Virus record (IMG/VR): IMGVR_UViG_3300025674_000131
Location: 1-38,365 of that record
DNA length: 38,365 nucleotides
Strand: one strand, 5' to 3'
From: a virus
Shown: one piece after another, positions 3 through 28,100 of the stretch
Numbering within the stretch: position 1 is the first letter of the stretch
Layout of the letters: every line of letters starts with the position of its first letter
Notes under the pieces: generated by a model
The model's input: the letters and a program-made list of their open reading frames with translations, nothing else
Told to the model about the DNA's origin: nothing
Databases searched by the model: none
Position numbers and translations under genes: made by a program

Positions 3-146
3 AGAGGACCTGCAAGCCCTCAAAATAGAACTAGCATGGGGGCAGGTGCACCGTTTTCTAGTGTTCAACAAAGAGGTCCTCAAGCCGGTGGAGTTCAGCA
101 GGCTAGTCAGAGTATAGCAAATGCTAGAAATCCAAGAGGGGCATGA
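3..146 (+). CDS. C-terminal tail of an upstream protein (5' end outside window)
   Basis: An open frame enters from the left edge and ends at the TGA at 144-146. The visible 47 residues are rich in Gln, Gly, Ala, Ser and Arg (for example AGGVQQASQSIANARNPRGA) and look like a flexible, low-complexity C-terminus. The stop overlaps the next start as ATGA, so the two genes are probably translationally coupled. In HK97-type gene orders a portal protein usually lies upstream of the protease, and portal C-termini are often flexible, so a portal is a reasonable guess. No portal-specific sequence is visible, so this is inference from position only. Confidence 0.6.
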   Translation, partial: RGPASPQNRTSMGAGAPFSSVQQRGPQAGGVQQASQSIANARNPRGA

Positions 147-1351: not shown

Positions 1352-4300
1352 TTGATTGAGACTCCTTTAGATATTCTCGATATTCGTAGAGAAACTTTTG
1401 CTAAGTCTCTGTTTGATGGCATTGGTTTTTCAGAGGCAGCATCTGAGTATCTTGAAGCACATCATCTTGTAACAAAGGCTGACCTTTATTATCAGCCACC
1501 TGTTTTTGAATCTTGGTTGCTTGATATTGCGAAGCAAGAAAATCCTGACTCTGTTACTGGGGGTGTCTTCGTTGGTGGTCAATTGTCTGCTGAATCGGGA
1601 GGACTGGGTAATCCAAATGTGTTTGAAGAAGACATGTATCAAGGTCAGTTACAATATCTTCCTGAGTTTGCAAGGACCATGGATATTCAAGGACCTGTGC
1701 AAGAAAACCCTCACCTGCAACATATGTTTGAAGAAGTTGAGCATACGTTTCACAATGGTGAAACAAAGAAAGTCCCCAAGTACATTGCCCACAATTTCAA
1801 CTATTATGCTCCTAGTGATGCTTACGGTGGCTTATCTCCAGCAGATTATAACAATAGGCGATTACAAAACAAATACAATTGGGGTGTAGAAAATCCTACT
1901 CAAAAAACTGTATTTACTGAGGGCATATTTGACAACTTCCCAATAGATCGCCACGAGCCTACGATAAAACACCATGAAGATAACCCTCATCCTAACGACG
2001 AAAATGTAAGGCACATGTTGGAAAATAGATATTTGGATGGGGATGTTCCATCATTGAAAGATGTTTTATTCGGAACTGCCCATTTACCAGCGTACAAAAG
2101 AAAAATGTTGTATGACAGAATTTTGGAACTAGGTGGTATAGACCAAGGTGCAGAATCCGATAGAGACCATAACGGATCTTATGGTGCACAAGGCATGCCA
2201 TTCGGCAGGATGATAACCAACCTGTACAAAAGAGCATTACCTCTGTTTAGAAAATTGATATCTCCTGATGAAATAGGTGCAGATAATCAACATGGTGTTT
2301 TAGAAAATATGCCTGAAGATTACAGAACAGCACCTGATGCTGTGTTCAAATCACTTCGTCCCGATGAGTTAGAAAGATTTCACATGAGTGTACTCAGTGG
2401 TTTAGGTATATTTGATGACAACGCTGGACTTATAGATGGCCTTACTAAGTACGCAATGGAACTGTACCCTCAAGATGATGAAGCCACTGCTAGAAGAAAG
2501 GCACTGCTTCAGTTTAGTCGCAATTACGATTTACCTGAATACAGTTCAAAAGATAAGAAGTTCACTGTCAAAAAAATAGGTCACAACAATTTGTCAAGAG
2601 GTAGGTGGCACGAATCTGTATCTAAAGAAAATCTAACATACAACGGTCTTTTGGCTGGTTTACACTATGATGAAGACGGAGGAGAACTCTACCCCTATCT
2701 TAACAAAGACAACCCTTCGGGTTTGAAATATGACCCTGCTTATGAGATAAACCCTATTACTATTAAGCAGATATTAGCGGGTATAGAGAAGACAAACCAA
2801 AGTATGTACACTGGTGCTAACTTAAGAAGAAACTCTGCTGGATTATTGCACCCTTATGTGCATCGTGATGAGATGCAGCCTTGGATGAATAATGACCCAA
2901 GAAGCCTAACTCATTTTTGGACTCAGATGCATCATGGTATAGCAGGTCATGGATTAGAGCCTAACAACGCAGCGTTAGTTATGGCGCACATATTTCAACA
3001 TGGTGACGATAATTTGCTATTCGACATGAACCATCCTGAAGATGAAGACAACTTCATACACCCAAAGGGACCTGCTAAGAAAGACAGTGATAATGCAAAG
3101 TCAATAGGTGGTGCTCATAAGGCTCTAGGGTTTATGGGTCAACAGCAACAACATATTGTTGTAAGACCATACTTCGATGTGCAAGAAGTCCTTCAACATA
3201 AGAAATCATTTGATAGAGGTGAAGAGGGAACTACGAACTTTATTCCACATCCAAACATAAAGGGTTACAAACGTGTACCGGTCAATCAATCTACAAGGTC
3301 TCTTAGTTACGGTTACTATCAAGGTATGCCTAGATTTATGCAAATGCGAGTTGAAGCGGCTGATAAAGTTGGAAGTGAGAGCATACCCTCTTTTGCACTG
3401 TCAGTAGGTACCCCTGCTTTAACCGGTATCACAAGGGCAGGCCAAGAAATAAAGAAACACCCTACTATGTTTTCAAGAAACCCGGAGGCAGATGCAAATA
3501 GATTCAAGGCACATCAGGTTAATCTAAAGGCACCGGCAGGACAAGTAGACAAGAAACACATAGACATACTTCGCAATCGAGGTAAGTTTGGTAATACAAT
3601 AGATGGTACTCGTATACACTCTAATACTAACATCAAGCATGTAGGTGAAATAGAACATCACGACAGAAACATTTGGTTAAAGAATAAGAGAGGCATGTCG
3701 ACTGGTGTAATCACTGGAGAAAAACATTCTCCTTTGTTTCCACAGGCTACCCATACTGTTGACTTTGACGATGAGTTGATGAATCACTATGGGGATAAGT
3801 TAGTCACAGATATACTTAGGCGAGATCAAGATGACAACACACCTGCGAAAGGCAAGGTAAGTAACTACACTGCCACTTTAAGCAAATTAGAGCAGTATTT
3901 TAACGAAAATAGAGAGAGACTAAAGGCTCACAGAGATGAAAAGGAAAGTATAGAGTGGCAACTTGACAAAAGGCAAAACCCACAACATGTTAGAAACTTT
4001 GAGCAAAGAGCAGCGTTAGAACAAAGACTCACTGAACTTGAGCCATTGCTCGCAGAAGAAAGGAAAAAAAGAAGCGAACACAAAAAGACACTTAAATGGC
4101 TTGATAGTAATCCTCGACATGACATAAATGAATTGTTTGAGATGATAAATAATCGAATAGACGGTGCTTCGGGTTTAGAAGGTCTTCGTTTAGAACAAGA
4201 ACGTGGAAGATATGAGCGTGGTAGACGTGGAGGCTTCAGTTATAATAAAGGCCGAGAAGGCAACAAGCAGGCTGTTAAGCAAGCAGACTTTGAAGCGATA

Positions 4301-6388
4301 ACAAACATAGCAGAAGATGAAAGAAATAAGTGGATTGATTCACAGGGGCTATCATTCGGAGACCCAAATAACATTCCTTTGTATCTAGGTAATCTTAGTA
4401 TTTTTATTAGGGCTATGGAAAGAAGACTGCACTCTGAAGATACTGGTGGAAAGTACAAAACTCTGCAGAATCATTATGACCATAACACCGATAGAGGCTG
4501 GACTGAGTTAACACCAATCACACCCAAAGGTAATATCGACGGGAAAGGCACATTCAATTATTTTGGGCACCACGGCTCTAACGGTTCTAACATTGGTTTG
4601 GTTTCAAATATCAAACCCGTTTACAATTCTCGCAATGAACTAGTTCGCTTTGAAGAAGTCGAGCCTTACTATTATGTGGGTAGAACCTTAACAAGACCTA
4701 TGTATAAGCAAGTAGGCCATGAGTATGAGGCGATGTGGGGCGGACACATGGATAGAGGAGAGGAATATGGTGAAGAATTTGGAATTGAAGGAGGCTACAG
4801 GAAGATGGTAAGAAAGCAAGAAGACGCTACATTGTTGCTTGCGTCACTCTCTAATCCTGACATTATGCTCAAGAAAGATGGTGAATATCCAATCCTTCAA
4901 CCGATGCATCGCATATTCAAGTTAGAGGACTTAGAACATCTGCGTGGATTTAGCGGAGACTGGATTGTATCTGCTATGCCTGAAGGTCCGAGAGCATTCG
5001 TAGAGAAGAAGGATGACAAAATTACAGTCAGGGGCGATTTCGATCTTGATGATGACACCAAGAAAAACTTCTCCAAGATAACCAAGAAGGACTTTATTGT
5101 AGACGTTGTCCTTGCAGACAAGGAGTATAATGTCATAGATATTGTTGATTATGATGGCAGCGATGTACATGATATGCCTTTGCAAGAGCGTATCAAGATT
5201 CTAAGAGGCACTATGGAAAGCACAGAAAACGTGTTGATGCCAGCGGCACACAATCTCAGGTTGACAGACGATGTTGGCTTAGAGGCAATCGTCAAAGATT
5301 TGATGAAAGAGCACAAGCGTTTGGTTTTGAGAGATGCCAATTCCACTTACATGAAAGGTGAAAGTAGACATCCAAAGTGGGTTCTGTATGATGAAGGACA
5401 AGATGTTAATTTAATGGTATTGGACAGAAAGGGTACATCATCTTACACATATCGATTAGGTACTGGCCCTATTACTCATGAAGACTCTCTAGGAGATCGT
5501 GCTGCAGAATATGAAGGTGATACTTACATGGATGTAGGTACATCATTCCAATCCAAAGATAAGTATGAGGTTGGAGATATAGTGACAGTAAATGTCGACA
5601 GTGTCTCTGTAACTGAAAATGTCGAAGGTGCTGACATCTATACAGTGAACAGTAATGAAATCAAAGGCGAAGCAGAAGGAGAAGGAGTTTCTAGTGTAGA
5701 AACACTTTCAATGTTTACAAAGTCCGAACCTATGATGTGGCCTCATGAAATAGATAGAGATGGGGACAGAATTGTAATCAAGATGGCAGCAGGTGACGTT
5801 AGTTACCGTGCTGCTTCAATCGATGGTGAATGGTTTATGTTCAATCCAAAGGCTGACAATGGTTGGCTGATTAGACTATCAGAAAGCCAAAGGCCATTTT
5901 GGTCTCCGGTAGCAGGGGTTATGCTCAAAGCAGATTTATCTCTATTAGATGAAGAGTCGAAAGCAGAAGTCCATGAATCTAAAAACGATGGCAAACCTTT
6001 GATACCTCCAAAGAAAGTTGCTAACACTAACTTTTGGGAAAGTGAAGTAGACGATGCAATAGAGCACAGAAAGAAAGTCAAGAGGCTATTAGCAAAGAGT
6101 TTAGCCTTAGCATCTTCGATGTTGAAGTCAGGGGTTGGTGCTGTAGGAGATTCTAGTACAGGTGCTATGGGTCTCGGTATAGATTATGCTACACCTATAG
6201 AATCACCAAGCGGTCCTACAAGTATAGTAGGTTCTAGTACTCTGCCTGACCATGACGCTAGAGATGTCGAGCGTGATAACAAGCGTCGTGCTGAAGATAA
6301 GAAAATGGGTTACATAGAGCCTGATGGCGAGGATGAAGGTGGCCTTTTGTCTATAGATAAGGACAAGGCGACCTTCGTATCTTATTAA
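1352..6388 (+). CDS. Very large head-region protein with a degenerate ATP-dependent DNA ligase-like domain
   Basis: The protein has 1678 residues. Residues 1 to about 830 are His/Asp/Asn-rich and unrecognised. About 850-930 is a charged coiled coil (LEQYFNENRERLKAHRDEKE). Residues about 1185-1345 follow the order of the nucleotidyltransferase core of ATP-dependent DNA ligases: AMPEGPR at 1208-1214 in place of KxDGxR, DIVDYDGSDVHDMPLQERIK (1263-1282) resembling the ligase YDLLYLDGxDLxxLPLxER stretch, KRLVLRD at 1322-1328 in place of EGLVxKD, and SRHPKW before 1344 in place of motif V. About 1370-1450 resembles the following OB-fold (KYEVGDIVTVNVDSV, then SSVETLSM). The lysine nucleophile is Met1209 and the other motif lysines and glutamate are changed, so it should not catalyse ligation. 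The C-terminus is helical, then Gly/Ser-rich and acidic. Its location beside the protease suggests a virion or packaging role; a DNA- or nucleotide-binding structural domain is inferred. Confidence 0.75.
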   Translation: MIETPLDILDIRRETFAKSLFDGIGFSEAASEYLEAHHLVTKADLYYQPPVFESWLLDIAKQENPDSVTGGVFVGGQLSAESGGLGNPNVFEEDMYQGQLQYLPEFARTMDIQGPVQENPHLQHMFEEVEHTFHNGETKKVPKYIAHNFNYYAPSDAYGGLSPADYNNRRLQNKYNWGVENPTQKTVFTEGIFDNFPIDRHEPTIKHHEDNPHPNDENVRHMLENRYLDGDVPSLKDVLFGTAHLPAYKRKMLYDRILELGGIDQGAESDRDHNGSYGAQGMPFGRMITNLYKRALPLFRKLISPDEIGADNQHGVLENMPEDYRTAPDAVFKSLRPDELERFHMSVLSGLGIFDDNAGLIDGLTKYAMELYPQDDEATARRKALLQFSRNYDLPEYSSKDKKFTVKKIGHNNLSRGRWHESVSKENLTYNGLLAGLHYDEDGGELYPYLNKDNPSGLKYDPAYEINPITIKQILAGIEKTNQSMYTGANLRRNSAGLLHPYVHRDEMQPWMNNDPRSLTHFWTQMHHGIAGHGLEPNNAALVMAHIFQHGDDNLLFDMNHPEDEDNFIHPKGPAKKDSDNAKSIGGAHKALGFMGQQQQHIVVRPYFDVQEVLQHKKSFDRGEEGTTNFIPHPNIKGYKRVPVNQSTRSLSYGYYQGMPRFMQMRVEAADKVGSESIPSFALSVGTPALTGITRAGQEIKKHPTMFSRNPEADANRFKAHQVNLKAPAGQVDKKHIDILRNRGKFGNTIDGTRIHSNTNIKHVGEIEHHDRNIWLKNKRGMSTGVITGEKHSPLFPQATHTVDFDDELMNHYGDKLVTDILRRDQDDNTPAKGKVSNYTATLSKLEQYFNENRERLKAHRDEKESIEWQLDKRQNPQHVRNFEQRAALEQRLTELEPLLAEERKKRSEHKKTLKWLDSNPRHDINELFEMINNRIDGASGLEGLRLEQERGRYERGRRGGFSYNKGREGNKQAVKQADFEAITNIAEDERNKWIDSQGLSFGDPNNIPLYLGNLSIFIRAMERRLHSEDTGGKYKTLQNHYDHNTDRGWTELTPITPKGNIDGKGTFNYFGHHGSNGSNIGLVSNIKPVYNSRNELVRFEEVEPYYYVGRTLTRPMYKQVGHEYEAMWGGHMDRGEEYGEEFGIEGGYRKMVRKQEDATLLLASLSNPDIMLKKDGEYPILQPMHRIFKLEDLEHLRGFSGDWIVSAMPEGPRAFVEKKDDKITVRGDFDLDDDTKKNFSKITKKDFIVDVVLADKEYNVIDIVDYDGSDVHDMPLQERIKILRGTMESTENVLMPAAHNLRLTDDVGLEAIVKDLMKEHKRLVLRDANSTYMKGESRHPKWVLYDEGQDVNLMVLDRKGTSSYTYRLGTGPITHEDSLGDRAAEYEGDTYMDVGTSFQSKDKYEVGDIVTVNVDSVSVTENVEGADIYTVNSNEIKGEAEGEGVSSVETLSMFTKSEPMMWPHEIDRDGDRIVIKMAAGDVSYRAASIDGEWFMFNPKADNGWLIRLSESQRPFWSPVAGVMLKADLSLLDEESKAEVHESKNDGKPLIPPKKVANTNFWESEVDDAIEHRKKVKRLLAKSLALASSMLKSGVGAVGDSSTGAMGLGIDYATPIESPSGPTSIVGSSTLPDHDARDVERDNKRRAEDKKMGYIEPDGEDEGGLLSIDKDKATFVSY

Positions 6389-6414: not shown

Positions 6415-7911
6415 ATGGCAAATGCTGCGGCACTCAGGGCTTCTACCCCCGTGCACTCATCTAGCATTTCCCTTCTAAAGTCTTCAAACGACTTGATTAT
6501 TGCTGGCTACGCATCCGTAGAGATGGTAGACAAGCAGGGTGACCTGATTACCCGTGGAGCACTTAGAGATGCCTTTGGTAAGTTCATGAAGGCAGACGGT
6601 TTCCGCAATGTACAACTCGCACACTCCAACATACAAGTTGGAAGTGTTATACCATCTTATACAGACTCAGATGGTAGACTATGGAAGTCCGGTGTCGATG
6701 ACGCTGGGATGTTCGTTGTCATCAAACTTAGAGATGACATTGAGAAGGCTCGTGAAGTAGCCAATGAGATTCGCAAGGGTAACCTAACTGGGTTCAGCAT
6801 TGGAGGACAGGCGTTCAAGCGCATTAATAAGTCCGATGCAAAGCATGGAAACTATACTGAGATTTCCAAGTTAGAACTACATGAAGTTACTATTTGTGAG
6901 AAGGGGATTAACCCCGAAGCATCCTTTAGAATTCTGAAGGAGGACACTACTATGACAAACGAAGTAGACGCATTGGGTGAATTGGCATCCGTAATCGATC
7001 GTTTATCTAAGCAGTTGGATGACATGGACAAAGAAGATGAACAAAAGGGTATGATGGATAAGAAACCTGATTACATCGATATCGACGACGACGAAGATAG
7101 AGAAGAAACCATGGAAGAAGCATCTGAAGACCGTGACGAAGACGATGATGACGATAGGGATATAGATAGACCAAGGAAACCTGAAGACCTAAAATTAGCC
7201 GAGGACGACAAAATGGCAGACAAAGACGATAAGAAAGACGAAGAAAAGAAAGACAAAATGTACAAGGATGACATGGAAAAGTCAGAGTACAGCGATGTCA
7301 TTACTAGTGAATACCTAGACTGGATGGAGAACACTTTGAAGTCCGCTGGTGTAGACACTGGTGCTGCTCGTGCACACTTTGACGGTATTAACAAGGCTAA
7401 CCTTGGTAGTACCCCTGAGCAAATTGGCGATGGAGCAGACTACTTTGCAGGTCAAGTAAAAGGCCGTGCAACAGAAAATGGCTCACCATCAACAAATGCA
7501 ATTTCCCGTGCAGGACTAGGTGGAGGCGGCGAAGTCGCTAAGTCTTACCTAAGCCCTGACAATGTTTCCCCATCTGAGATTGAAGAAGCATATGAGGTCT
7601 TTAAGGCAGCAGCACTAGAGCAACAGTTCAAGAACAACTTGAACGATGTGTTCTCAGAGCGTTTGCAGAAAGAACTAACATCAGAAGCACAGACTCGTGC
7701 AGCAGCAGAGTTTGACGCTCGTGGCCCTCTCGCAACTATCGAGAAAGCAATTTCACAACTAAGTGAAAGAATCGATAACATCGGTTCTTCAACAACTGCG
7801 GAAATCCGCAAATCAACAAACCACTCCACAGTAGAAATACCATCTACAGAGGAACTAGCAAACATGTCGTGGGACGAAGTACACAGTCTCGCAGGAAGTG
7901 TTTGGAACTAA
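6415..7911 (+). CDS. HK97-family prohead maturation protease fused to a scaffold-like region
   Basis: The protein has 498 residues. Residues about 25-175 match the HK97/XkdF-type prohead serine protease: GYASVEMVDKQGDLITRGAL near the start, His70 in QLAHSNIQVG, Ser128 in GNLTGFSIGG, and ELHEVTICEKGINPEA (154-169) as the final conserved strand. His70 and Ser128 are the expected catalytic pair. After residue 175 comes a very acidic segment (about 200-290, runs of D/E/K), then a helical region with a coiled coil around 425-455, ending in PSTEELANMSWDEVHSLAGS near 476-495. The capsid protein downstream has only a short N-terminal arm, so this C-terminal half probably supplies the scaffold function, cleaved out by the protease during maturation. 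The C-terminal peptide recurs in the protein encoded at 531-890. Spacing to the capsid gene is 15 bases. Confidence 0.88.
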   Translation: MANAAALRASTPVHSSSISLLKSSNDLIIAGYASVEMVDKQGDLITRGALRDAFGKFMKADGFRNVQLAHSNIQVGSVIPSYTDSDGRLWKSGVDDAGMFVVIKLRDDIEKAREVANEIRKGNLTGFSIGGQAFKRINKSDAKHGNYTEISKLELHEVTICEKGINPEASFRILKEDTTMTNEVDALGELASVIDRLSKQLDDMDKEDEQKGMMDKKPDYIDIDDDEDREETMEEASEDRDEDDDDDRDIDRPRKPEDLKLAEDDKMADKDDKKDEEKKDKMYKDDMEKSEYSDVITSEYLDWMENTLKSAGVDTGAARAHFDGINKANLGSTPEQIGDGADYFAGQVKGRATENGSPSTNAISRAGLGGGGEVAKSYLSPDNVSPSEIEEAYEVFKAAALEQQFKNNLNDVFSERLQKELTSEAQTRAAAEFDARGPLATIEKAISQLSERIDNIGSSTTAEIRKSTNHSTVEIPSTEELANMSWDEVHSLAGSVWN

Positions 7912-7926
7912 ATGGAGGAATGATTA

Positions 7927-9054
7927 ATGGCACGAAATTATACACGCACAGTACAAGACATGGAACGCTACTACTATGGAGCAGGCACTAACATGGGATT
8001 CGGTTACTCCGGTAGCGAACTTCTCAAGGCAGACGCTCCAATGCTAAGCACAACCGCTGGTACCTACCAAGCAATCTACGGACGCAAAGTATGGTCACAG
8101 TTGAACCAAGAGTTTAACGCATTCTCTATCCTTCCTAAGAAGCCTTGGGACCGCAGTGGATGGAGAGTCGTAACTGCAAAGCCTTCGACAGCAGTCGGCG
8201 GCGGTATTGCAGAGAACGGCACACTGCCTGACACCACCAAGCCTACATTCCAAAATGTTGCAGCAAAGCCTAAGACTATCGCACACTCATTCGATATGTC
8301 CGAGGTTGCAATCTTCTTGAATGACAAGGATGACGGACTTGGCGACATTCGCTCTGTCCTAAAGGAAGAGATGGGTAAGCACCACGCTGAGCACATCAAC
8401 CAAATGCTATTGGAAGATGTTACAACTGCAGCAGGTAACGACCTTGAATCACTTGACAGAATTACTACTGGTAACAACAGCATGACATCCGGCACTCACT
8501 ACGATGCTGGTGACGAAGATATTTACAGTATTGACCGAAGTGCAAACACTTGGTCCTTTGCTGAAGATTCTGCTGACAGCGGCTCTGCTAACAGAACTCT
8601 ATCATTAGACCACCTAGACGAGATTTTCAGACTTGTTTGGGAGCGTGGTGGTAATCCAAAGGTTATGCTAACAGGATATGACACTCTAATGAGAATCCAG
8701 CAACTATTGCAGGCTCAACAGAGATTCATGGAAGAGAAGCGTGTTGTACCAACATACAACGGCGTTAAGGGTGTACCGGGTGTTGAGGCAGGATTTATTG
8801 TCGCAACCTACAACGGTGTACCAATCATCCCATCTAAGGATGTAGCAAAAGACGGCATCAGCAGAATCTACATGCTTGACACCGACTACATGTACTACAG
8901 TACTGCGAAACCAACTCAATACTTTGAGTCCGGTATCGAAACTGGCGATCCATTCGCAATCAACAGACTAGGACAGGAAGGACTTTACCGCACAATGGGT
9001 GAAGTTTGGACTACTTTCTTTGGAGGTCAAGGTTCAATCCGTGACCTACAGTGA
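7927..9054 (+). CDS. Major capsid protein, HK97 fold
   Basis: This 375-residue protein forms the icosahedral shell. Recognition rests on its place directly after the protease, its typical length, and segments typical of HK97-fold capsid proteins: an E-loop-like region followed by KPKTIAHSFDMSEVAIFLND (about 114-133), comparable to the VKTIAH helix entry of HK97 gp5; an A-domain pattern with GNPKVMLTGYDTLMRIQQL; and a C-terminal YNGVPIIPSKDV strand. The N-terminal arm is short, and LLK34-A35 followed by DAPMLSTTAG could be a maturation cut, as Lys103-Ser104 is in HK97. No large delta domain is present, consistent with scaffold being fused to the protease. A strong GGAGGAATGATT site precedes the ATG. 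Confidence 0.9.
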   Translation: MARNYTRTVQDMERYYYGAGTNMGFGYSGSELLKADAPMLSTTAGTYQAIYGRKVWSQLNQEFNAFSILPKKPWDRSGWRVVTAKPSTAVGGGIAENGTLPDTTKPTFQNVAAKPKTIAHSFDMSEVAIFLNDKDDGLGDIRSVLKEEMGKHHAEHINQMLLEDVTTAAGNDLESLDRITTGNNSMTSGTHYDAGDEDIYSIDRSANTWSFAEDSADSGSANRTLSLDHLDEIFRLVWERGGNPKVMLTGYDTLMRIQQLLQAQQRFMEEKRVVPTYNGVKGVPGVEAGFIVATYNGVPIIPSKDVAKDGISRIYMLDTDYMYYSTAKPTQYFESGIETGDPFAINRLGQEGLYRTMGEVWTTFFGGQGSIRDLQ

Positions 9055-9092: not shown

Positions 9093-9719
9093 ATGGCAAC
9101 AACAACACACAGAGGAATTACCTACACCACTAGTAGCAGCGCAGGAATCGATGTATTACTCGATATGCCACTACAAGGCGGAGTAGACCAAGACAAGACA
9201 GAATGGCTGAACGGCAACAGTGGTGGCTCTTATCCGGGTTCACTAACTGGCTTTGTCGCTAACAACGCTGATGGTTCAAAAATACAGAACCCACGACTAT
9301 TGGTTGTACATATTAGTACAATGGTTAACGATGAAACATTGACTCTTTCAGGAGAGTGCACAGAAATTATGCACACCTCTTGCCAGTGGGCAGAAACCAA
9401 TGCTGCACCGGGTCTATCTCAACACGCAGCAAGTGGAGTTCTAATTAATGACGGTTCAAACTTTTTGACAAGCGAGTCAACAACCGCTGTTGACGGAACT
9501 GATGCAACAACACAATTTAGTGTTGGTGACTTTATTCTTAATTCAGAGGGTGCAATAGTAGGAACATTAACTGCTGTTGGAGCAACAAGTCTAACTATTG
9601 CGGCTAATGCAACTGTTCAAATGAATGACGACGCAGCGGTTCACAAGAGAACCCCACTTGTTCTCAAGAACACATCGGGAACTACTGAGTCGGTTACTCT
9701 AATGATGCTAGTCCGTTGA
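9093..9719 (+). CDS. Candidate capsid decoration or head-stabilising protein
   Basis: The protein has 208 residues, is rich in Thr, Ser, Ala and Gly, and looks all-beta. It follows the capsid gene, a position commonly held by decoration proteins. The N-terminal 100 residues include HISTMVNDETLTLSGECTEI, a beta-sandwich-like pattern. Residues about 132-186 hold a small beta module (FSVGDFILNSEGAIVGTLTA, then SLTIAANATVQ) that recurs in the tail tube, a tip paralogue and the giant protein here. A good AGGAGATGA site precedes the ATG. Tail spike or fibre function is less likely from position. The family was not identified. Confidence 0.65.
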   Translation: MATTTHRGITYTTSSSAGIDVLLDMPLQGGVDQDKTEWLNGNSGGSYPGSLTGFVANNADGSKIQNPRLLVVHISTMVNDETLTLSGECTEIMHTSCQWAETNAAPGLSQHAASGVLINDGSNFLTSESTTAVDGTDATTQFSVGDFILNSEGAIVGTLTAVGATSLTIAANATVQMNDDAAVHKRTPLVLKNTSGTTESVTLMMLVR

Positions 9720-11000: not shown

Positions 11001-14000
11001 ATGGGTGATGTTTTAGTTAAGTCGAGAGCCGACACTGAGGCCGAGAGGCAGGCAGCAGCAGCAGCATCCTTTGAAGGTAAAGGTGACAGACGTGACCTAC
11101 CCATCCCTCTTTCTATGAAGAAATTACCAACCTTTAGAAGGACTTATACTGCTAAAGATGGTAGTAAGAAAAAGGCTAGTTTAGAATCCTTAGTAATAAT
11201 GCGTGAGAAAAACAGGTCCGGTAGGGATTTGAACAGAGAAATCGTAGACGCAGAAGCAGCAGGTGACACTAGTAAAGTTACATCTATTAAGAATGAAATA
11301 AATGACTTAGTCTATGCAGAACTCGATGACGATGAAAAGCAAAGGGTAGAAAGCATACTTGAAAATAACAAAAGATACGAACAAAGTCTTCTTGAAAACG
11401 TAAGAGATGAAGACCAAGAAGAAGAGCAACCTAGACCCGGAATAGGTGTACCGGAAGCAGCAAAAGAATTAGGTATTGATTTACCTGAAGAAAAACCGAC
11501 AGAAGAAGTTAAGCCGTTTATATCAACATCATCTGCTGCTGATGAAGCGTTGGGCATAGGTGACCCTTCTAAAAGAAAACCTGTTGCCGTAAAAGACGAA
11601 CCTGAACTAAGTCGAAGAAGACAAACTTTAGTCGGCGTAGAAGGTCGTGCACAAGAAGCAGCAGAAGCGAAGGGTCTTGATTTCAATTTACTACAAACTA
11701 GAGCACTTAACGAAGTTAAGCGCATGGCTAGAGAGCAGGGCATCCCTGTGCCTAGTGAAAAGGCAGGGAAAGAGCGACTTGAAGGTGATGTCGATCCTAG
11801 ATATAGAGAACTCTTAGAGAATAATTATCAAGACATCTTAGAGGGCATGATAGTAGGTAGGACACCTACTGCTGAAATGAGACTTGATGATGAAGGTAGG
11901 ACAAGAGAAGTTGGCGTGTTACCTCGTACAGAGACAGCAAGAGAGGTCGCTGTCGAACAAAGAGGAGATAAGCAAGCAAGGGATGACGCTTTAGTTGCTA
12001 TCTATGGATATCAACAGCAGCGAAGAGATGCACTAGACCAAGGTAATGATAAGTTAGTCGCTGTCTTGGATTCTGCTATAGAGGAAGAGGCGAAGGTTTT
12101 CCCACCTGAATCTCGTGAAGATGTAATGTCAAGGCCTGTTAATTTAAACGAAATGGCTCGAAGAATGGGCGGACAGGCTATGGAAACAGAGGCAACTAGG
12201 GCGACAAGTAGAGACAAAAAAATTGACAGACTTGAGTCTATGTTGAACGAGCCTTACATCATTGCAGGTGACGGTAAAGGTAACATCGACCCTGTACACG
12301 CTATGTTCAATGAAGAGCGAATAAAGGCTCAGATGCTTTTGCGTGAAGGTCAAGAAACAGGCGACCAAGCCAAGATAGACGAGGCTAAGGATGCTTTGAA
12401 TGTATACTTCCAAATGATTGCACAGGATGAAAAGGTCAAGGAACAATTGCCTGTGGATGAAGAAACAAACAATAGGATTCAAGAAATCGATGAACAACTT
12501 AGAGGTATTAAATCCGAAGGTCGAACTATGACAGGTGGATTGATGGCGCAGAATCCTGAAGATAATCCCGAAGTTAGAGAACAGATAGAAAGGCTAGAGC
12601 AAGAAAGACAAAGTCTGTTATCTTCCCGTGAGTTACCAAAAGGTAGTAGCGGTATAATGAGAAACGTCCCTGCTGGCTTAGGCGGTAGGATTACAATGAC
12701 ATCTCAAGGATTTGATATCGCTTCTGATATTGCTGCACCTGTACCTGCTAGACAATTTTTCCTAGACCAAATGCTCGGTAGACCAACTACAGGTGCTAGA
12801 TCTGCAGGTGGTAGGGGCGTAGGTCGTGATTTAAGTGCTAAGTCTCTTAGAGATATGCAGATGATACTTGACAGGATTGGGCCGACTCTTCGTCACAATA
12901 TAGATGAAACCAATGAGAAAAGAAAAGAATCAGGTCTACCACCACTATCTCCTAAAGATGAAGAACAAATGCTAGTTCACTGGGATTTCAAACATGACCC
13001 AACCTTTGTTGCAGAGGCAGAAGCACTTGGTCTTGAGGTGCCCTCATACAGAGAGGCTTTCCAAGAAGGTAAAATGCTTGCAGAAGACCAAGTAGGTAGA
13101 AGTGCTGACGCTAGAAAGTTTAGAGGAAGAACTGATACCACTCAGAGAAGGCAGTTAGATAGATTGATGAAAGAATCAATCGCACGTTTCCTCGCACAAC
13201 ACATTACTACTCCTGAAGGTGCTAGAGAGGTATTAGGTGGCAATTATGCTACATTCATGCCTGCCGATAGACCTGAATTGATTGCAGACTTTGACCCTGA
13301 AATAGAGAATAAAAAGTTGCAGAAATTGCTAGAAGAAAGAACAGACGCAGAAAATTATCTAGCAAGCAAAGACCCTGAAAAGCGAAGAGAAATCTACGAA
13401 AGAAGGCAAAACGCAATTCGCCAAAAGGAACACGGGATGACAGAGAGGGCTATTCAAACGGCTGCTGAAAATTACGCTCTTGGCAAATCGGGTATGCTTG
13501 ACGCAATGAAGGGTATCGGATTTGGTGGCAAGTCTGCTGACGAAATGAGAGAAGCCCAAGCACTAATCTTTGCTGGTGCAACAGCCAAAGAAGAAGCAGA
13601 TATGGCATCCTTCTTAGGAAATGATGCTCCGATAAGGCAAATGATGAACCGCATCCAATTCCAATTACAAAGCAAATATGGATATCCACCAAATTATATT
13701 GAAGGTACAGACATAGGTGATTTGTATGCTCATGCAGATGAACTTACTGGTAGAGCCGATGAGTTAAACGCAGCAACCCAAGAACTCAAGCGACCAGTCG
13801 AAATCAAGTTTAGGGAAATCTACAATCAAATGCAGGCTTTCAATGAAGGTGCTGGTGGGGCTAAGCCTATACGAATAGGTAGTGATGCACCTCTACCGAC
13901 GCTTGACATGAATCCTGATGTTCCAAAGAAGGAAAGAGGATTTGACATAGAGCAAATGCAGATGGATAGACAGATAGCCTTAGAGCAAGGTGATACTAGA

Positions 14001-15425
14001 AGGGCAGCCGAACTATTACAGTCTATCAATGCTGCAAAAGCAGAAACTGGTGATAAACCTACTTTAGATGAGTTGGAAGATAGACTAAGGGAGGCTGAAA
14101 ACTCAGCCTTAGCGATGGGCATCAAGCCTTCTGAATCTGAAGTAGTTCGACGCATCATGGAAGACATCAAAGGTTACGGTAAAGAAAAGACAACATTCAC
14201 AGGTATGGGCGACCAAACAAGAACCCGTGTCGACTTTGGTCAGAGAGCACCGCCAACTCGTGTAGGTCAGGCTGGTGGGGCACAAAGAACTCACGGAGAT
14301 ATTCTTGATGAAGTTTCAAGAGAACTAGAAAACCGTGAGCAAGAAATTGACATAGTCGCTAGAGAGTTAGGGGCGCAGCGAGACCTCGGAATTACTCAAG
14401 AAGAGTTTGGCGAAATGCCTGCTGCTGCTCGATTGTCCGGCGAAATGAGAAGTCGTGAAGGTATGGGGCAGGCTAGTAGAGCAGCCCTTGAATTAGCACG
14501 ACCTAATGACGAAACTGGTTTCTTACAAATGCCTAAAAAACGTGAAGATGAATCAGAGGCAGGACAAAAAGACATTCGTGGAAGAGATAAGCGTCTTGAC
14601 GAAACCGGTCCAAAGCGTTCACTAGACGCTGCCGTTAGAGCAGGGGAGGCGGAACCACTGTCTAGGAGAACAGGGGCTGAGACAGATAGCAAAGCAAGGC
14701 TTCTCGGTATGGACAAAGACCTCACAAGTAACATGGCACAAACTATGGGGCCTGAACAAATACAAGCCCTCCTATCAGATCCAAGGGTACAAGCACTGGG
14801 CCAAATCCCTGAGTATCAAAGAGCAAGTCAGCGTGACAAGATAGATATGATGCAAGCAGTTGCTAGTGGTGCTCTTAGCATAGAAGACTTACAACCAGCA
14901 GCGGCACCTGCGCCAACACCTGAACCTGAACCTGCGCCAACACCGCCTCCTGCAGCACCGCCTGCGCCGCCTGCACCGGGGGAGTCTGCCTTTGCAGGAG
15001 AGCCACCGAATCCACTTTCAGCCATGCAACAACAAGGAGGTCCTGTAAATGTATTCCCTCAAGAACAACAAGTAGTGCCTATGGACACTACTGCAGGGGA
15101 GCAGCCTGAAGTTATAGGTGAGGCACCGCAACCTACACCGTTTGCGACTACTCCACAACAACCACAAGCACCGTCGCCCGGTACTCAGGTTACGGCAGCA
15201 CCGGCTGGTATAAATCAAGAACAACTCGCAGCAATGATACAGCAATTAGGTTTGACAGACCCTGCATTTATACAATCTCTCGCAGGTAAAAGTTTAGAAG
15301 AGATACAGCAGGAAGTTCTCGCAAGAATGATGCAAAAGTCCGAGTCAATGCGTCGCTTCGATGCAACTGTTGGTGACGACTTGCTGAAGAGTATCAAAGA
15401 CCGTATTTGGCGGCAGGGTTATTGA
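11001..15425 (+). CDS. Very large helical, charged protein between capsid and neck genes
   Basis: The protein has 1474 residues, is extremely rich in Glu, Arg, Lys, Ala and Gln and almost lacks Cys, predicting long helices and coiled coils. A loose helical-hairpin motif with a central G-D or G-N turn recurs: EAAGDTSKVTSIKNEI near 84, ALDQGNDKLVAVLDSAI near 345, QETGDQAKIDEAKDALN near 451, LEQGDTRRAAELLQSIN near 994. Residues about 1300-1420 are Pro/Ala/Gln-rich (PAPTPEPEPAPTPPPAAP), followed by a helical C-terminus (KSLEEIQQEVLARMMQKSES). The composition could suit a tape measure, but it lies before the connector and tail tube genes, so an internal head protein or ejection protein is equally plausible. 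A GGAGGAATGATTTC site precedes the ATG. Confidence 0.7.
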   Translation: MGDVLVKSRADTEAERQAAAAASFEGKGDRRDLPIPLSMKKLPTFRRTYTAKDGSKKKASLESLVIMREKNRSGRDLNREIVDAEAAGDTSKVTSIKNEINDLVYAELDDDEKQRVESILENNKRYEQSLLENVRDEDQEEEQPRPGIGVPEAAKELGIDLPEEKPTEEVKPFISTSSAADEALGIGDPSKRKPVAVKDEPELSRRRQTLVGVEGRAQEAAEAKGLDFNLLQTRALNEVKRMAREQGIPVPSEKAGKERLEGDVDPRYRELLENNYQDILEGMIVGRTPTAEMRLDDEGRTREVGVLPRTETAREVAVEQRGDKQARDDALVAIYGYQQQRRDALDQGNDKLVAVLDSAIEEEAKVFPPESREDVMSRPVNLNEMARRMGGQAMETEATRATSRDKKIDRLESMLNEPYIIAGDGKGNIDPVHAMFNEERIKAQMLLREGQETGDQAKIDEAKDALNVYFQMIAQDEKVKEQLPVDEETNNRIQEIDEQLRGIKSEGRTMTGGLMAQNPEDNPEVREQIERLEQERQSLLSSRELPKGSSGIMRNVPAGLGGRITMTSQGFDIASDIAAPVPARQFFLDQMLGRPTTGARSAGGRGVGRDLSAKSLRDMQMILDRIGPTLRHNIDETNEKRKESGLPPLSPKDEEQMLVHWDFKHDPTFVAEAEALGLEVPSYREAFQEGKMLAEDQVGRSADARKFRGRTDTTQRRQLDRLMKESIARFLAQHITTPEGAREVLGGNYATFMPADRPELIADFDPEIENKKLQKLLEERTDAENYLASKDPEKRREIYERRQNAIRQKEHGMTERAIQTAAENYALGKSGMLDAMKGIGFGGKSADEMREAQALIFAGATAKEEADMASFLGNDAPIRQMMNRIQFQLQSKYGYPPNYIEGTDIGDLYAHADELTGRADELNAATQELKRPVEIKFREIYNQMQAFNEGAGGAKPIRIGSDAPLPTLDMNPDVPKKERGFDIEQMQMDRQIALEQGDTRRAAELLQSINAAKAETGDKPTLDELEDRLREAENSALAMGIKPSESEVVRRIMEDIKGYGKEKTTFTGMGDQTRTRVDFGQRAPPTRVGQAGGAQRTHGDILDEVSRELENREQEIDIVARELGAQRDLGITQEEFGEMPAAARLSGEMRSREGMGQASRAALELARPNDETGFLQMPKKREDESEAGQKDIRGRDKRLDETGPKRSLDAAVRAGEAEPLSRRTGAETDSKARLLGMDKDLTSNMAQTMGPEQIQALLSDPRVQALGQIPEYQRASQRDKIDMMQAVASGALSIEDLQPAAAPAPTPEPEPAPTPPPAAPPAPPAPGESAFAGEPPNPLSAMQQQGGPVNVFPQEQQVVPMDTTAGEQPEVIGEAPQPTPFATTPQQPQAPSPGTQVTAAPAGINQEQLAAMIQQLGLTDPAFIQSLAGKSLEEIQQEVLARMMQKSESMRRFDATVGDDLLKSIKDRIWRQGY

Positions 15426-15461: not shown

Positions 15462-17063
15462 ATGCCAGTTATATTCTCTCCCGGTGAGGCAGAAACACGA
15501 CCTCTTGACCCTGAAGCAATCGTCTATACCACTGCTCAAAAGGTAGCAGATTTACTTGGCATTGGTCCTCAAGAAGCAGTCCTAGCCAGTGCTAATTCAG
15601 TTAGTGATGGCGTATTTGTTACTGGTGGAGACTTCAGAAACACTGGATTTAGTGCTAATGATACTGTTCTCATATACAGTGATTTAGACCCTAAAGGCGT
15701 AGAACTCACTATTGATTCTACCGCTAACGGCGGAGCAAGTGGAGTAAAATTGGTTACAAGTACTTCATTCACTCACACTAATTTTACCACTGCTGCTAAT
15801 ACCTACATACAGAATCAGGCTTCATTTACCAACGGCAAGACTCGTGGAATGACAAGAGCAACCGTTGAAGAGTTCATCAAGCGCACTCAAGATCGCATAG
15901 ACAATGACACTCACAATGCTTGGCGACCTACGATGGTTCACGCTGAGTATATCAACTTCGATACTTACAAGCCGTATCGCCGCCGGTACTATACAGATTA
16001 TGTTGGTACATCTCCTCTGCTGTTCAGAAATGTACAGCAGGTTTTGAGGCTTGAAGTATGGCAGGGTGATGACTACAGGGATTTGTGTGGCTCTGAGGCT
16101 AGACTTGAGATAGTAAATGAGGCTGGTTTGAAAGGCGACTCTATTTGTATAGGTATGGCAAACGGCAGTGTTGCTACTCTTGCTGAACACAACGGTGACA
16201 ACTCAACAAGCAAATGGAGAGCAGACTTCGATAAAGTTAGTACTGCTCAGAATCTCGCTGACTTAATCAACAAAGAGGACAGAGTAAACAAAGCGGCTGT
16301 AGAGTTTAGTCCAGCCTTTACATTAGAAGGTTCAACTAGTAACATAGCAGTTCACAATGAGATACTTGCTACAGCAAACTCTGACTATGGTAATGGCAAA
16401 GTCAAGATTACAAGTCTGCGTCAAACTAAGGGTGGAGAAACAGTTAGCATTGCTTCTACAGACTTGACAAACTTGACGATATCTCAAGTGACCGAGGCTA
16501 GCACAACATCAACCAGTGTATCTAGCGATACTGTAAATGTAGCGTCAACCAGTGGCTTTGCCAACGGTGGTGTGTTGATGGTAGGCTCAGGAGATTCTGT
16601 AGCCATTTTAAGATACACTGGCAAGACTGATACTTCTTTTACAGGCTGTGTAAATGTGATAGGTACTCCTTTGACAACACTAGGCTCATCAGGTACAACT
16701 GTTTTCCAAAGGCTACTTCAATCAGATATTGGGGCATTCTCTGACTTAGGAGGTGACCAAGGTCGTTTGAAAGACTGGTGGATTGACTACGAAATGGGTA
16801 TCATCTACTTCAACAACTCTTATCCGTACTTTGAATGGAACGCTATCAAAGTCGCTTATATCTATGGGGAGCGTTATGTAGAGAAGGCTATTGAAGAAGC
16901 GGCTACAAAGATGGTTGCATCTGACTTGCTCATGTCGGATGACCGTTCAGTGCTGATACCTGAAGGCTCTCAAAACGTAGACCTTGGTGCAAAGATTCAG
17001 ATATTCCGTAATCAAGCCAAGGCTATTCTAAGTAGATATAAGGAGATAGTGGTGTTTGAATGA
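15462..17063 (+). CDS. Head-tail connector (adaptor)-like protein with a large beta insertion
   Basis: The protein has 533 residues. The ends look like a connector of the HK97 gp6 kind: an N-terminal TTAQKVADLLGI helix, a TRATVEEFIKRTQDRIDNDT helix near 130, and C-terminal helices (YVEKAIEEAATKMVASDLLM, then IQIFRNQAKAILSRYKEIVV). Between them lie beta-rich inserts, including about 350-397, whose VNVASTSGFANGGVLMVG, LRYTGKTDTSFTGC pattern recurs in the giant tip protein. WWIDYEMGIIYF (about 443-455) resembles a common connector strand. It should sit between portal and tail at the neck. It overlaps the next gene by ATGA, typical of connector and terminator pairs. Confidence 0.68.
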   Translation: MPVIFSPGEAETRPLDPEAIVYTTAQKVADLLGIGPQEAVLASANSVSDGVFVTGGDFRNTGFSANDTVLIYSDLDPKGVELTIDSTANGGASGVKLVTSTSFTHTNFTTAANTYIQNQASFTNGKTRGMTRATVEEFIKRTQDRIDNDTHNAWRPTMVHAEYINFDTYKPYRRRYYTDYVGTSPLLFRNVQQVLRLEVWQGDDYRDLCGSEARLEIVNEAGLKGDSICIGMANGSVATLAEHNGDNSTSKWRADFDKVSTAQNLADLINKEDRVNKAAVEFSPAFTLEGSTSNIAVHNEILATANSDYGNGKVKITSLRQTKGGETVSIASTDLTNLTISQVTEASTTSTSVSSDTVNVASTSGFANGGVLMVGSGDSVAILRYTGKTDTSFTGCVNVIGTPLTTLGSSGTTVFQRLLQSDIGAFSDLGGDQGRLKDWWIDYEMGIIYFNNSYPYFEWNAIKVAYIYGERYVEKAIEEAATKMVASDLLMSDDRSVLIPEGSQNVDLGAKIQIFRNQAKAILSRYKEIVVFE

Positions 17064-23207: not shown

Positions 23208-25181
23208 ATGGCTTTACCTATACGATTAATTGTTGGGCCGGATAACTTGATGGAGATACCATTGGAGGCACAATCCCTAGATATCTCTGTAGATCGTAAT
23301 GCTTCCGCCTTTCCGACACCTAACAACATTGTAGGGAGAATAGCAATTGATACAAACATACCTAGTATTGCGATAGACATAGGGGGTGTGTTCCAAGATG
23401 ATACTAGTGCTAGTATCGATGTGGGTACAACTAAGTCTAAAATAAGTGGGGGAGATATAGTTTTCAATTTTGCATCTGCTATGCCTACTTCTAACTTAGC
23501 AAACAATGAATCGTTATTGTCAATATACGGTAATAATGACGTTTACATAGTGACTAGATTCAAAGAAGACTTTGCTAAGTCAACATCATCCACCACAGGT
23601 GACATAGACATTTACGACATCGACAGCGAAGATTTTGCTCTCCGTGTATTAACTTCTACACTCGATAACAGTTCTGACAGAAATTCTGTAGACCATCCCT
23701 CTGCTAGTTCTTATGCTGCTGGCTCGACTAGTATACAGGTTGATGCTGGTAGCGGGTTTAAAGTAGGGGAGAGAATACACCTGTCTAACGGTACATTTGT
23801 TGGTACAATTACTGGTATTAGTGGTGACATTTTGAGTTTTGCAAACGGCACTCTTGTTACCTTGGCAGATAACACTGACTTACATTCCTATTCTACGACT
23901 CTATACACGACTAAAGGACAGATAGTAGGTAGTGTAGTAGGCGTTAAAACTAATGCAGATGTAACGAAATTGAGAATAAAGGAAATCGAATTAGATAGTT
24001 TCGCTCAACCTGTTTATGATTATGTCGATTATTATATGGTTTTAGGTGGTGCTAGTGCACCAATTGAAAGGGTACTTGACCAAAAAGTAATCGAACTGTA
24101 CCCTAATTTTTGGCGTATAGATACTGTCAGCAGGACGAATAATGCTGGCTTTGCTCCTGCTAGGCCAAAACCGATAGCAGTACAATTACAATTTTCAGAT
24201 GATATGGCCCATACAGATTATCAAAACGAAGGGACCACTGGCTCTTATCCATCCGTAACTCAACAAGGAAAGCATATACCTAGTACAGTCAATGGTGTAA
24301 GGTCTTCTACTAGTAATGGCAAGGACGTAATCATAAAGGTACCAGTAGGAGGAATAAGCACACATTCTGTAAATGGTAATCCTGCAGAAACACTTGCGTT
24401 AATCGTAAAGAAAGCGTTAGAGTTGACCTCAGATGCAATGGAAATCGGAGACTTTGATGGAGCGTCAGGTTCAGCAGTATCAGATGCCTTTGAAGTATCT
24501 GTCTCAGGCCCTATGCTAAAAGTCAAGCAAAAAGTTGAACCTTTGAACAATACGTTGCTGTCTGTTTTAGAGCCTTGTAGTCAGGTACTTAACTCTCAAA
24601 ATTATGACATTGGAAGCGAGTTGGCACAAATAGAGTTCTTTACTGACAATTACAGTACCTACTCTGTAAGTGTAAATTCAAAGTCTGCAGGTGATAAAGT
24701 GCAGGATTTGATTGGACTAGTATCAAATGCTAAAAAGAATAGGGATTTAATCAGAGGCATACAAATACCTTATGATAGTTTGATACAAAGCGATGCAGTA
24801 ACGCCAACTGCAAGAAATTTCTTCTTGACTTTTGGAGAGCAAGACCCTGAAGCAAAAGGTTCCTCCGGTAATACTATCCCAGCGTCACGTACAATGATAC
24901 CGGGCTTACTACCGGGAGATTTAGGCGGTGACCCTTTACCAGATCGGGGTTCGGGTTTGCTTGCTAACATTGCTGAATTTGGTGATGCACTTTTGGCTCT
25001 TGGGTCATTTGTTACAAACTTTGTTGGTGATACATTTCTAACATTACTTTCTGACCCTCACGGAAACGAAGGTGGAATGAGGATTATTCCTGAAAAACTA
25101 CATGTACGCTATGATGCTGGCAACAACTACTACGCATTCAATTTGAGATTATTAGCGTCTGACTTTGTAATAGGGGTGTGA
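23208..25181 (+). CDS. Tail tip protein, paralogue 2
   Basis: The protein has 657 residues. It shares with the preceding gene the N-terminal domain (SLDISVDRNASAFPTPNNIV, then IAIDIGGVFQDD) and the C-terminal block from about 492 (KSAGDKVQDLIGLVSN, RGIQIPYDSL, ending YYAFNLRLLASDFVIGV). The lectin insert is absent; instead residues about 163-229 hold the small module SGFKVGERIHLSNGTFVGTI. This suggests a duplicated tip scaffold in which one copy gained a binding domain. It lies nine bases after its paralogue and two bases before the giant gene. Dit- or hub-like function is inferred from place after the tape measure; no catalytic domain is visible. Confidence 0.65.
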   Translation: MALPIRLIVGPDNLMEIPLEAQSLDISVDRNASAFPTPNNIVGRIAIDTNIPSIAIDIGGVFQDDTSASIDVGTTKSKISGGDIVFNFASAMPTSNLANNESLLSIYGNNDVYIVTRFKEDFAKSTSSTTGDIDIYDIDSEDFALRVLTSTLDNSSDRNSVDHPSASSYAAGSTSIQVDAGSGFKVGERIHLSNGTFVGTITGISGDILSFANGTLVTLADNTDLHSYSTTLYTTKGQIVGSVVGVKTNADVTKLRIKEIELDSFAQPVYDYVDYYMVLGGASAPIERVLDQKVIELYPNFWRIDTVSRTNNAGFAPARPKPIAVQLQFSDDMAHTDYQNEGTTGSYPSVTQQGKHIPSTVNGVRSSTSNGKDVIIKVPVGGISTHSVNGNPAETLALIVKKALELTSDAMEIGDFDGASGSAVSDAFEVSVSGPMLKVKQKVEPLNNTLLSVLEPCSQVLNSQNYDIGSELAQIEFFTDNYSTYSVSVNSKSAGDKVQDLIGLVSNAKKNRDLIRGIQIPYDSLIQSDAVTPTARNFFLTFGEQDPEAKGSSGNTIPASRTMIPGLLPGDLGGDPLPDRGSGLLANIAEFGDALLALGSFVTNFVGDTFLTLLSDPHGNEGGMRIIPEKLHVRYDAGNNYYAFNLRLLASDFVIGV

Positions 25182-25183
25182 AA

Positions 25184-28100
25184 ATGACTATACTGATTGA
25201 CCCCGGACACGCTTTACTTTTCAACGGCATAACTGATGGTGTATTGGTTCCCCCGAATCTTAACATCGTACACGGCAAGAATGATGGAGGCCTCAAGACT
25301 TTACCTAACGTATTACGTTCGTTTACTTTAGAAACTTGGATAGTACCTGACTGCGGTGGCATTGTGTATGAATACGAAAATGTCATGCGATTGAGTGTAG
25401 GTACACCATCCAGTCCTGCACCTGCAACCTTTGAAATAAATTTAGAAAATGTAGCCGCTGGTACTACTAGTGTTTATTCTTTGAATAGTGCAAAGCCTGT
25501 ACACAGTCCTAATGGAGATTTGGCTTATTGGGATGGTGTGTTGTTCCCAACTCCTCATTTGAATGCTCATAATTCATATGTGTACATAGATGCTGATTTA
25601 AATGACCCCACTGCTTTGAACGATGGTCATAGAGAATTACTGAATGTTACAGTTACCTTCACAGGTAGAAGATTAACCATGCATATTAATGGTGACCTAG
25701 TGGTTTCCAAGGCCTTTGATGAAGTGCAACAGGTTGTACTAAATCCCTCAAACATGTTTCTTGGAGGTAAAGGTGGTGAATACCGAGGAACAATAGAAGC
25801 AATTCATCTCTCAAGAGGTGTCAAGCCTTCAGGTAAAGTTGCTTATGCTCCTATGAAAAGTGATGATACAATAGCACTTTGGAGGTTTGAAGAGCCGATT
25901 GAGCCAATAGCCACGCAAGTTGTTACTCCATCGATTTCAGCATCGACTAGTGCTAGTTCTACAATCAATATAGGAACAAACGCTGCTAAAGCACTAGCGA
26001 AAGAATTAGCAGGAGATGGTGTAACAGAAAGTATTGACTTTACTACAACTGCACCATGGAATTCACAGGGTTCTTACACTGTAAAGAAATATGCCGCAAC
26101 ATCTACTAGCGACATTACCATTCCAAAAGTACCTTACAACATCATAGTTAATCCTTTAGGTTACAACCCAACAACTGGTAAGCCTACTGCAAAGGCACCT
26201 GAACGCCTCCGATTGATGGCGATCGATGGCAGTGCAGGTACAGTAACAGTTGAATCAATTCATCTCGATTTTGGTGCAACTTCTAATGGGAGAAGAGGGG
26301 CACTACAAGCACACGACGCAGGTATATTTGTTGTCGTTACGGGAGACTGCATAGTAGATGGTGGAAATGGTAACGACTTCCAGCCACAAGGTAGTGGTAC
26401 TCAATTTTCTCACAGGCAGGGCCAAGTGTGCATTGATGAAAGTGATTTTGAAAACCACGGCATTATGTTTTCAATGAGCATGTCGATCGACTCTGATAGT
26501 TACAACAAGTTTTCAGCATCCTCTGCTAATCCCGGCGACGGGTTTTACATAGGTCATTCGGGTAGACATACTCTCAATCATGTCAAGAGTCATCCTTTCA
26601 TGGGTACTTTGCCACCAGTTTCGGATTTAGTAGTAGACAAAAAATTAGATGCATCGGCTGATGTAATTTCTGCATCTTTCGACTCTCAGTACTCAGATAT
26701 CAAAGACACAGTTCCCGTCAACTCAAAGATATCTGCTTACGATTCACATATTAGCAACCCATTAACTAACGTGACCTTTAGCACAAAGGTAAGCCAAGTA
26801 GTAGAAAACGGCATGAGCGATATCTCTGATACGCAAAGAGGCATGATTGGTATAGGTGGTGTTAGATTTGATTCAAGTCTATTTAGTTTGAAGAGTGTAG
26901 GTGGCAATGCTACTCTAAATGATTCGGTGGAGGCTGCTAGGCATTTAGTTTCGTCCGATGAGTCAAGGATTGCTATACTAGATTTACCTTCACTTTCAAC
27001 TTATAACTACGCTCCATTTATACAAGTCCATTACAATGCTGTTTCTCATAATTCTGAGAATTTTTCCGTTGCTGCTGCGTCTAGGATAGACTCATCCTTT
27101 ACCAGTACATCTACAGTTATCAAGTTGGAAAGTATCAAATCTTTTGGCAAAGACGGAGCCGTTTTGTCCGCAGCCAATTTCCTTATAGGTAGCACTCCTG
27201 CAACTACAGACCCTTCAATTACTGCTACATTAGACCACACTACTAAGAAAATCACATTTAGTTCGGCTACAGATTCAGCATTCCAGTCTGCTGACACTAC
27301 TGGTGCTATAGTAAAATTAAGAATGAATGGTCCGTCATTAATGGTAACGAAAACTGTACCCGACGTGAGTACGGTTGTTACTGGTACTACCTCCATTCTC
27401 GATCTTATCCATACTGCATTAGACGCAGGAGACTTAGACATACATTCACCCGGAGGTAGAATTGAAATAGATATGCCTGAAAACTTTGGATTCACTGAAG
27501 GTGACTTAGAGGGAGATACCGAAGAGGGTACAGTCGCAGAACCAAAGTTGGACTTCACACTCTGTCCTGAAAACTATCTACCATTGACTTCAACAGACAC
27601 CCCTGCTAAAACCCCTCAAAGTATAGCATTGGCTGATTCTAATCTATCAACTAAGTCTTCTCAGTTTAGTAAGGTCATTGTTTCTCGTAGTTACAACTCC
27701 AGTAATTTAGAAGAAGTTGAGGATATGACTAGGCAATTGCCAACTAGCCATAGACTTAGGACTGGCTTACTAATTAACAATAACGGAGGTTATGCGGCTA
27801 GTACTACTACTGCACTAACCGTAGACGGTGTAGATGCTAGGACAGTGTTTGTCGATGGGGACATAGTCTACAAAGCGGACGGAACTAAGGTCGGCACAAT
27901 TAATCACACAGTAACTGAGACTACTATCCGCATATCAGGTAGTGGTGGAACAGCAGTTGCTCTGCAAGATAACGAAGAATTGTTTATCGGTCCTATTGTT
28001 TTAGGAACCGGTACAACAAATCAGTCTACAGGAGTTTACGAAATCTTTGACATTATTGAACACCAAGTTTTAGGTAAAAAGGTAGTTCTTACAGTACAGC

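Follow-up and report, generated by a model that had tools for sequence, protein, structure and literature searches.

A predicted DNA-ligase fold without its catalytic residues in a giant head-operon protein of magrovirus-like archaeal viruses

Why would a virus encode a DNA-ligase-like domain that lacks the catalytic lysine, inside a giant protein situated between the portal gene and the prohead protease gene? This question was raised by the 38,365-nucleotide stretch of the IMG/VR virus record IMGVR_UViG_3300025674_000131 (positions 1 to 38,365), which is hereafter called the window. The earlier note, made from the sequence alone, claimed that residues about 1185-1450 of a 1678-aa protein follow the motif order of ATP-dependent DNA ligases (nucleotidyltransferase plus OB fold), that Met1209 replaces the KxDG lysine, that the EGLVxK motif reads KRLVLRD, and that motif V lacks its lysines. 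This observation was confirmed.

The giant protein is encoded at 1352..6388 (+) and starts with TTG. The start is supported by a ribosome-binding-like stretch, GGGTGAT, just upstream, and by relatives which have TTG, GTG or ATG at the same place. The window begins inside the portal gene, and 12..143 (+) encodes the last 44 residues of the portal protein. The prohead (head maturation) protease at 6415..7911 (+) and the HK97-fold major capsid protein at 7927..9054 (+) follow the giant gene with short gaps, and thus this is a compact head operon. The position between portal and protease is as the earlier note described.

Several methods indicated that residues ~1180-1455 form a ligase-type nucleotidyltransferase fold (residues 1180-1350; 4889..5401 (+)) followed by an OB fold (residues 1351-1455; 5402..5716 (+)). 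The Pfam family PF01068 (DNA_ligase_A_M) matched residues 1256-1343 with 27.5 bits against the gathering cutoff of 26.2 (E = 2.9e-6), and 49 of 50 aligned relatives matched it when they were scanned one by one. A single-sequence search of PDB chains ranked an archaeal DNA ligase first (4eq5, E = 2.7e-4). Profile-profile comparison with seven ATP-dependent DNA ligases using hhalign gave an E-value of 1.4e-5 and a probability of 80%. In the AlphaFold model, block pLDDT is mostly 80-94 over the nucleotidyltransferase part and mostly 70-89 over the OB part, and the 50 PDB matches listed by Foldseek are all ATP-dependent DNA ligases (best E = 1.7e-11). The overall confidence of the model is moderate (mean pLDDT 67.7) and whole-chain TM-scores to ligases are low (0.24-0.35), indicating poor superposition beyond the single domains; the fold assignment therefore rests on the E-values, the sequence evidence and the agreement between methods, not on a close superposition. 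Together these lines make chance very unlikely. In contrast, the curated score cutoffs of NCBIfam for active ligases were not reached (e.g., TIGR00574, 16 bits against 217.8), the N-terminal DNA-binding domain of archaeal ligases was not found by Pfam search in this protein or in 37 N-terminal regions, and no consistent PHROGs family was obtained for the domain. No homologs were found with tblastn in annotated phage records, or in the bacterial and archaeal genome collection.

The catalytic motifs were then compared with those of ligases. The profile alignment pairs Met1209 (ATG at 4976-4978) with the KxDG lysine, Lys1322-Arg1327 with EGxxxK, and Leu1345 and Asp1347 with the two motif V lysines. 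Motif I reads MPEGPR (4976..4993 (+); KxDGxR in ligases), motif III reads DVV with the loss of Glu (5102..5110 (+); DGE in ligases), motif IV reads KRLVLR (5315..5332 (+); EGLVxK in ligases), and motif V reads KWVLYD with both lysines lost in this protein (5375..5392 (+); WxKxK in ligases). The stretch between motifs III and IIIa is shorter than in the ligases used for comparison. The OB part carries a conserved acidic run EAEGEG (residues 1440-1445; 5669..5686 (+)) where ligases have the basic motif VI, although this placement is inferred. Compared with the archaeal ligases of Thermococcus sibiricus (4eq5) and Pyrococcus furiosus (2cfm), the domain order, the predicted fold, the Gly and Arg of motif I, the Asp of motif III, the Arg of motif IIIa and the SxY..G....W stretch are kept.

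Whether any relative keeps an intact KxDG had been named beforehand as a check, and no relative examined does. Among 96 distinct domains, 90-92 of which cover each motif, the nucleophile lysine is present in 0/90 (Met, Trp, Tyr, Phe or Leu is observed instead), the motif III Glu in 0/90, the first motif V Lys in 0/92, and the motif IV Lys in 2/91 (Arg in 89). Meanwhile, Gly1212, Arg1214, Asp1251 and Arg1280 are conserved in 90/90, and Asp1328, Ser1331, Tyr1333, Gly1336 and Trp1343 are invariant where covered. One clade, represented by 11 distinct sequences, has a lysine one residue before the aligned position (KWYDG), and it could be imagined that the domain is a still-active nucleotidyltransferase using this shifted lysine or another nucleophile. 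This is very unlikely, because that clade also lacks the motif III Glu and the first motif V Lys, the other clades including the protein in the window have no lysine at or next to the position, and the OB fold is dispensable in another clade (L076, L078, L079, L094 and L095 among the loci of relatives), which has lost it entirely. The dN/dS of the nucleotidyltransferase part is 0.02-0.06 where dS could be estimated. The possibility of a degenerating ligase remnant without function, suggested by the missing catalytic residues, is contradicted by this strong constraint, by the invariant non-catalytic residues, and by the presence of the domain in every locus with enough flanking DNA. By sequence, the domain is a maintained pseudoenzyme of the ligase superfamily; its inactivity is inferred from sequence.

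The capsid protein is 33-35% identical to those of Haloarcula viruses of the Druskaviridae. A capsid-profile scan of IMG/VR revealed 420 relatives, of which 80 loci were fetched. These loci were chosen by capsid protein and not by the ligase domain. The giant gene was found in 74 of the 80, always upstream of the capsid gene, with the protease directly after it in 73 and the portal before it in all 54 with a portal hit; the other six have less than about 1.8 kb of DNA upstream of the capsid gene. Fifteen large relatives (73-109 kb) all encode PolB and 14 of them encode a chaperonin, and in the 109-kb relative the replication and structural genes run in opposite directions. PolB is split into two open frames in two relatives (G006 and G007, the records of L068 and L071). 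These features match the descriptions of Magrovirales (PMC12999244, PMC10768690) as tailed viruses of about 90-110 kb with a Druskaviridae-like capsid protein, PolB, a chaperonin and opposing replication and structural modules, although the window itself covers only the structural module, and the assignment as magrovirus-like rests on these features, not on comparison with the classified magrovirus genomes (OR863078, ON649702).

Magroviruses are abundant viruses of uncultured marine Poseidoniales archaea; their founding paper is PMC5434244. Published accounts state that almost all magroviruses encode a DNA ligase as part of a nearly complete replication set (PMC10160649), and an ATP-dependent DNA ligase is listed for Apasviridae (PMC12999244) and Aoguangviridae (PMC10768690). 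In one published group A magrovirus, the "ATP-dependent DNA ligase" lies beside the prohead protease (PMC7318539). In 30 related records analyzed here, PF01068 matched nothing but the giant gene, and NAD-dependent DNA ligase and RNA ligase families were absent from the 12 relative genomes tested. As a positive control, the ligase of the halovirus HGTV-1 scored 93 bits in the same search. Thus, the replication ligase reported for magroviruses is probably this protein, which the earlier note did not recognize. Contigs may be incomplete, and a ligase on missing DNA cannot be excluded for any single record. If the same holds for the published genomes, these viruses would have to use the ligase of the host, and the annotation of a working replication enzyme should be corrected.

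The giant protein consists of a constant ligase-like C-terminus of ~520 residues and a hypervariable N-terminal part of ~1100 residues, an architecture which the earlier note did not see either. The C-terminus is about as conserved as the portal, terminase and capsid proteins. The first ~40 residues (1352..1471 (+); M[IR]E..LD..DR.R..F..S) are moderately conserved, more so than the rest of the N-terminal region, while residues 41-1149 (1472..4798 (+)) are hypervariable, mostly helical in the model and partly disordered. Searches of the N-terminal region with Pfam (37 N-terminal regions), PDB sequences and Foldseek gave no known domain, including no MuF or effector domain. Downstream from the OB fold are a small beta-rich element (residues 1456-1530; 5717..5941 (+)) and a predicted disordered tail with a conserved motif, MGLGIDYATPIESPSGPT...LPDHDAR (residues 1606-1637; 6167..6262 (+)), which is near-invariant among relatives (GLGID...SP.GPT...PD.D) and is a possible docking peptide. 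No second copy of this motif was found in the window or in the relative G002.

Two relatives, L001 and L002, share 94-99% identical portal, terminase and small neighboring proteins, and the dS of their nucleotidyltransferase part is 0.10, yet their N-terminal regions are only 25% identical in protein and 42% identical in DNA. Of 50 pairs with C-termini at least 85% identical, 17 have N-termini at most 50% identical, while no pair shows the reverse (N-terminus at least 85%, C-terminus at most 70%). This suggests exchange by recombination, though very fast divergence is not excluded.

In related haloviruses, the same slot between portal and protease holds large proteins with zeta-toxin, ADP-ribosyltransferase and Mu F domains, such as, in the Druskaviridae, HVTV-1 gp115 (L023:12623-16564; zeta toxin plus ADP-ribosyltransferase) and HCTV-5 gp114 (L026:12812-16693; zeta toxin). 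BLASTP detected no homology of the giant protein to HVTV-1 gp115, HCTV-5 gp114 or vir519 gene 22, and the domain profile had no match in those records. The Druskaviridae proteins are large and multidomain and carry recognizable enzyme domains rather than a dead ligase. Polyvalent and MuF-type proteins delivered from phage heads (PMC5512222, PMC5576092) also occupy a head-module position and join a constant part to a variable part, but here the constant part is C-terminal and the variable part is N-terminal.

The explanation favored here, with moderate confidence, is that a magrovirus-like virus has turned the catalytic core of an ATP-dependent DNA ligase into a non-catalytic module of a giant protein of the head operon, one that does not ligate DNA. 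The analysis itself establishes the ligase fold, the loss of the nucleophile and most other catalytic residues throughout the family, the very strong purifying selection, the fixed position between portal and protease, and the joining of a constant C-terminal part to a hypervariable N-terminal region. It is only inferred, from the operon and without virion proteomics, that the protein is a late head or virion protein, that the pseudo-ligase core and the disordered tail dock it to the prohead or portal region or to packaged DNA, and that the N-terminal region is exchanged between viruses as a variable cargo or host-facing part, probably carried in the head; because no known domain was found there, "cargo" is a guess. 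In this view the likeliest role of the C-terminus is a constant head-docking or retention module, as suggested by the position, the constant C-terminus and the near-invariant disordered tail motif. It would be a clear case of a replication-enzyme fold turned into a head or virion component, tied to a hypervariable region. A more speculative extension, which is possible but doubtful, is that the dead ligase core is the constant docking module of a giant head protein whose N-terminal cargo of ~1100-1450 aa is exchanged between viruses and delivered into the archaeal cell, a mirror image of polymorphic, head-delivered effectors.

The interpretation in the earlier note was only partly supported. 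It proposed that the pseudoenzyme may hold DNA ends or nicked DNA, or act as a purely structural element at the packaging vertex. The pseudoenzyme nature by sequence and the position between portal and protease are supported, while the holding of DNA ends or nicks and the location at the packaging vertex are not shown. Nucleotidyltransferase plus OB is a DNA-clamping pair in ligases, and near-invariant basic or polar residues remain around the former active-site motifs (Arg1187, Arg1214, Arg1280, Arg1327, Arg1339, His1340 and Lys1342), suggesting that a binding site is kept. However, the nucleotidyltransferase and OB parts are acidic (median net charge -12 and -11), the acidic run lies where basic motif VI would be, one clade has lost the OB fold, and no ligase N-terminal DNA-binding domain was found. 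These observations argue against simple nick holding but do not exclude DNA binding, and the charge argument is weak because live haloarchaeal ligases are acidic, too. A non-catalytic clamp on DNA ends, nicks or packaged duplex at the packaging vertex is considered unlikely. It remains possible, though tentatively, that the protein is a pure protein-protein scaffold for head assembly in which the fold only provides a binding surface and the N-terminal region varies because it is loosely constrained, not because it is delivered. The location beside the protease and capsid genes, the helical and partly disordered N-terminal region and the acidic domain are consistent with this, whereas the clustering of near-invariant residues at the old active-site motifs suggests a retained ligand site, and the N-terminal differences within near-identical C-terminal backgrounds look like exchange rather than drift.

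Other features were observed elsewhere in the window. A second hypervariable ORF (11001-15425; 1474 aa) is 33% identical to the relative G001, and only its last 43 residues align to G002, while several neighbors are 80-99% identical. An ORF of at least 4396 aa (25178-38365) runs off the window end, and in G002 ORF picking gives two large ORFs (1652 and 3702 aa) over the corresponding stretch. A block of about 75-95 residues recurs in different structural proteins, like a shuffled surface domain; it was found at 9093-9719, in the ORF at 25178-38365 (residues 842-937), and in G001 inside the homolog of 15462-17063.
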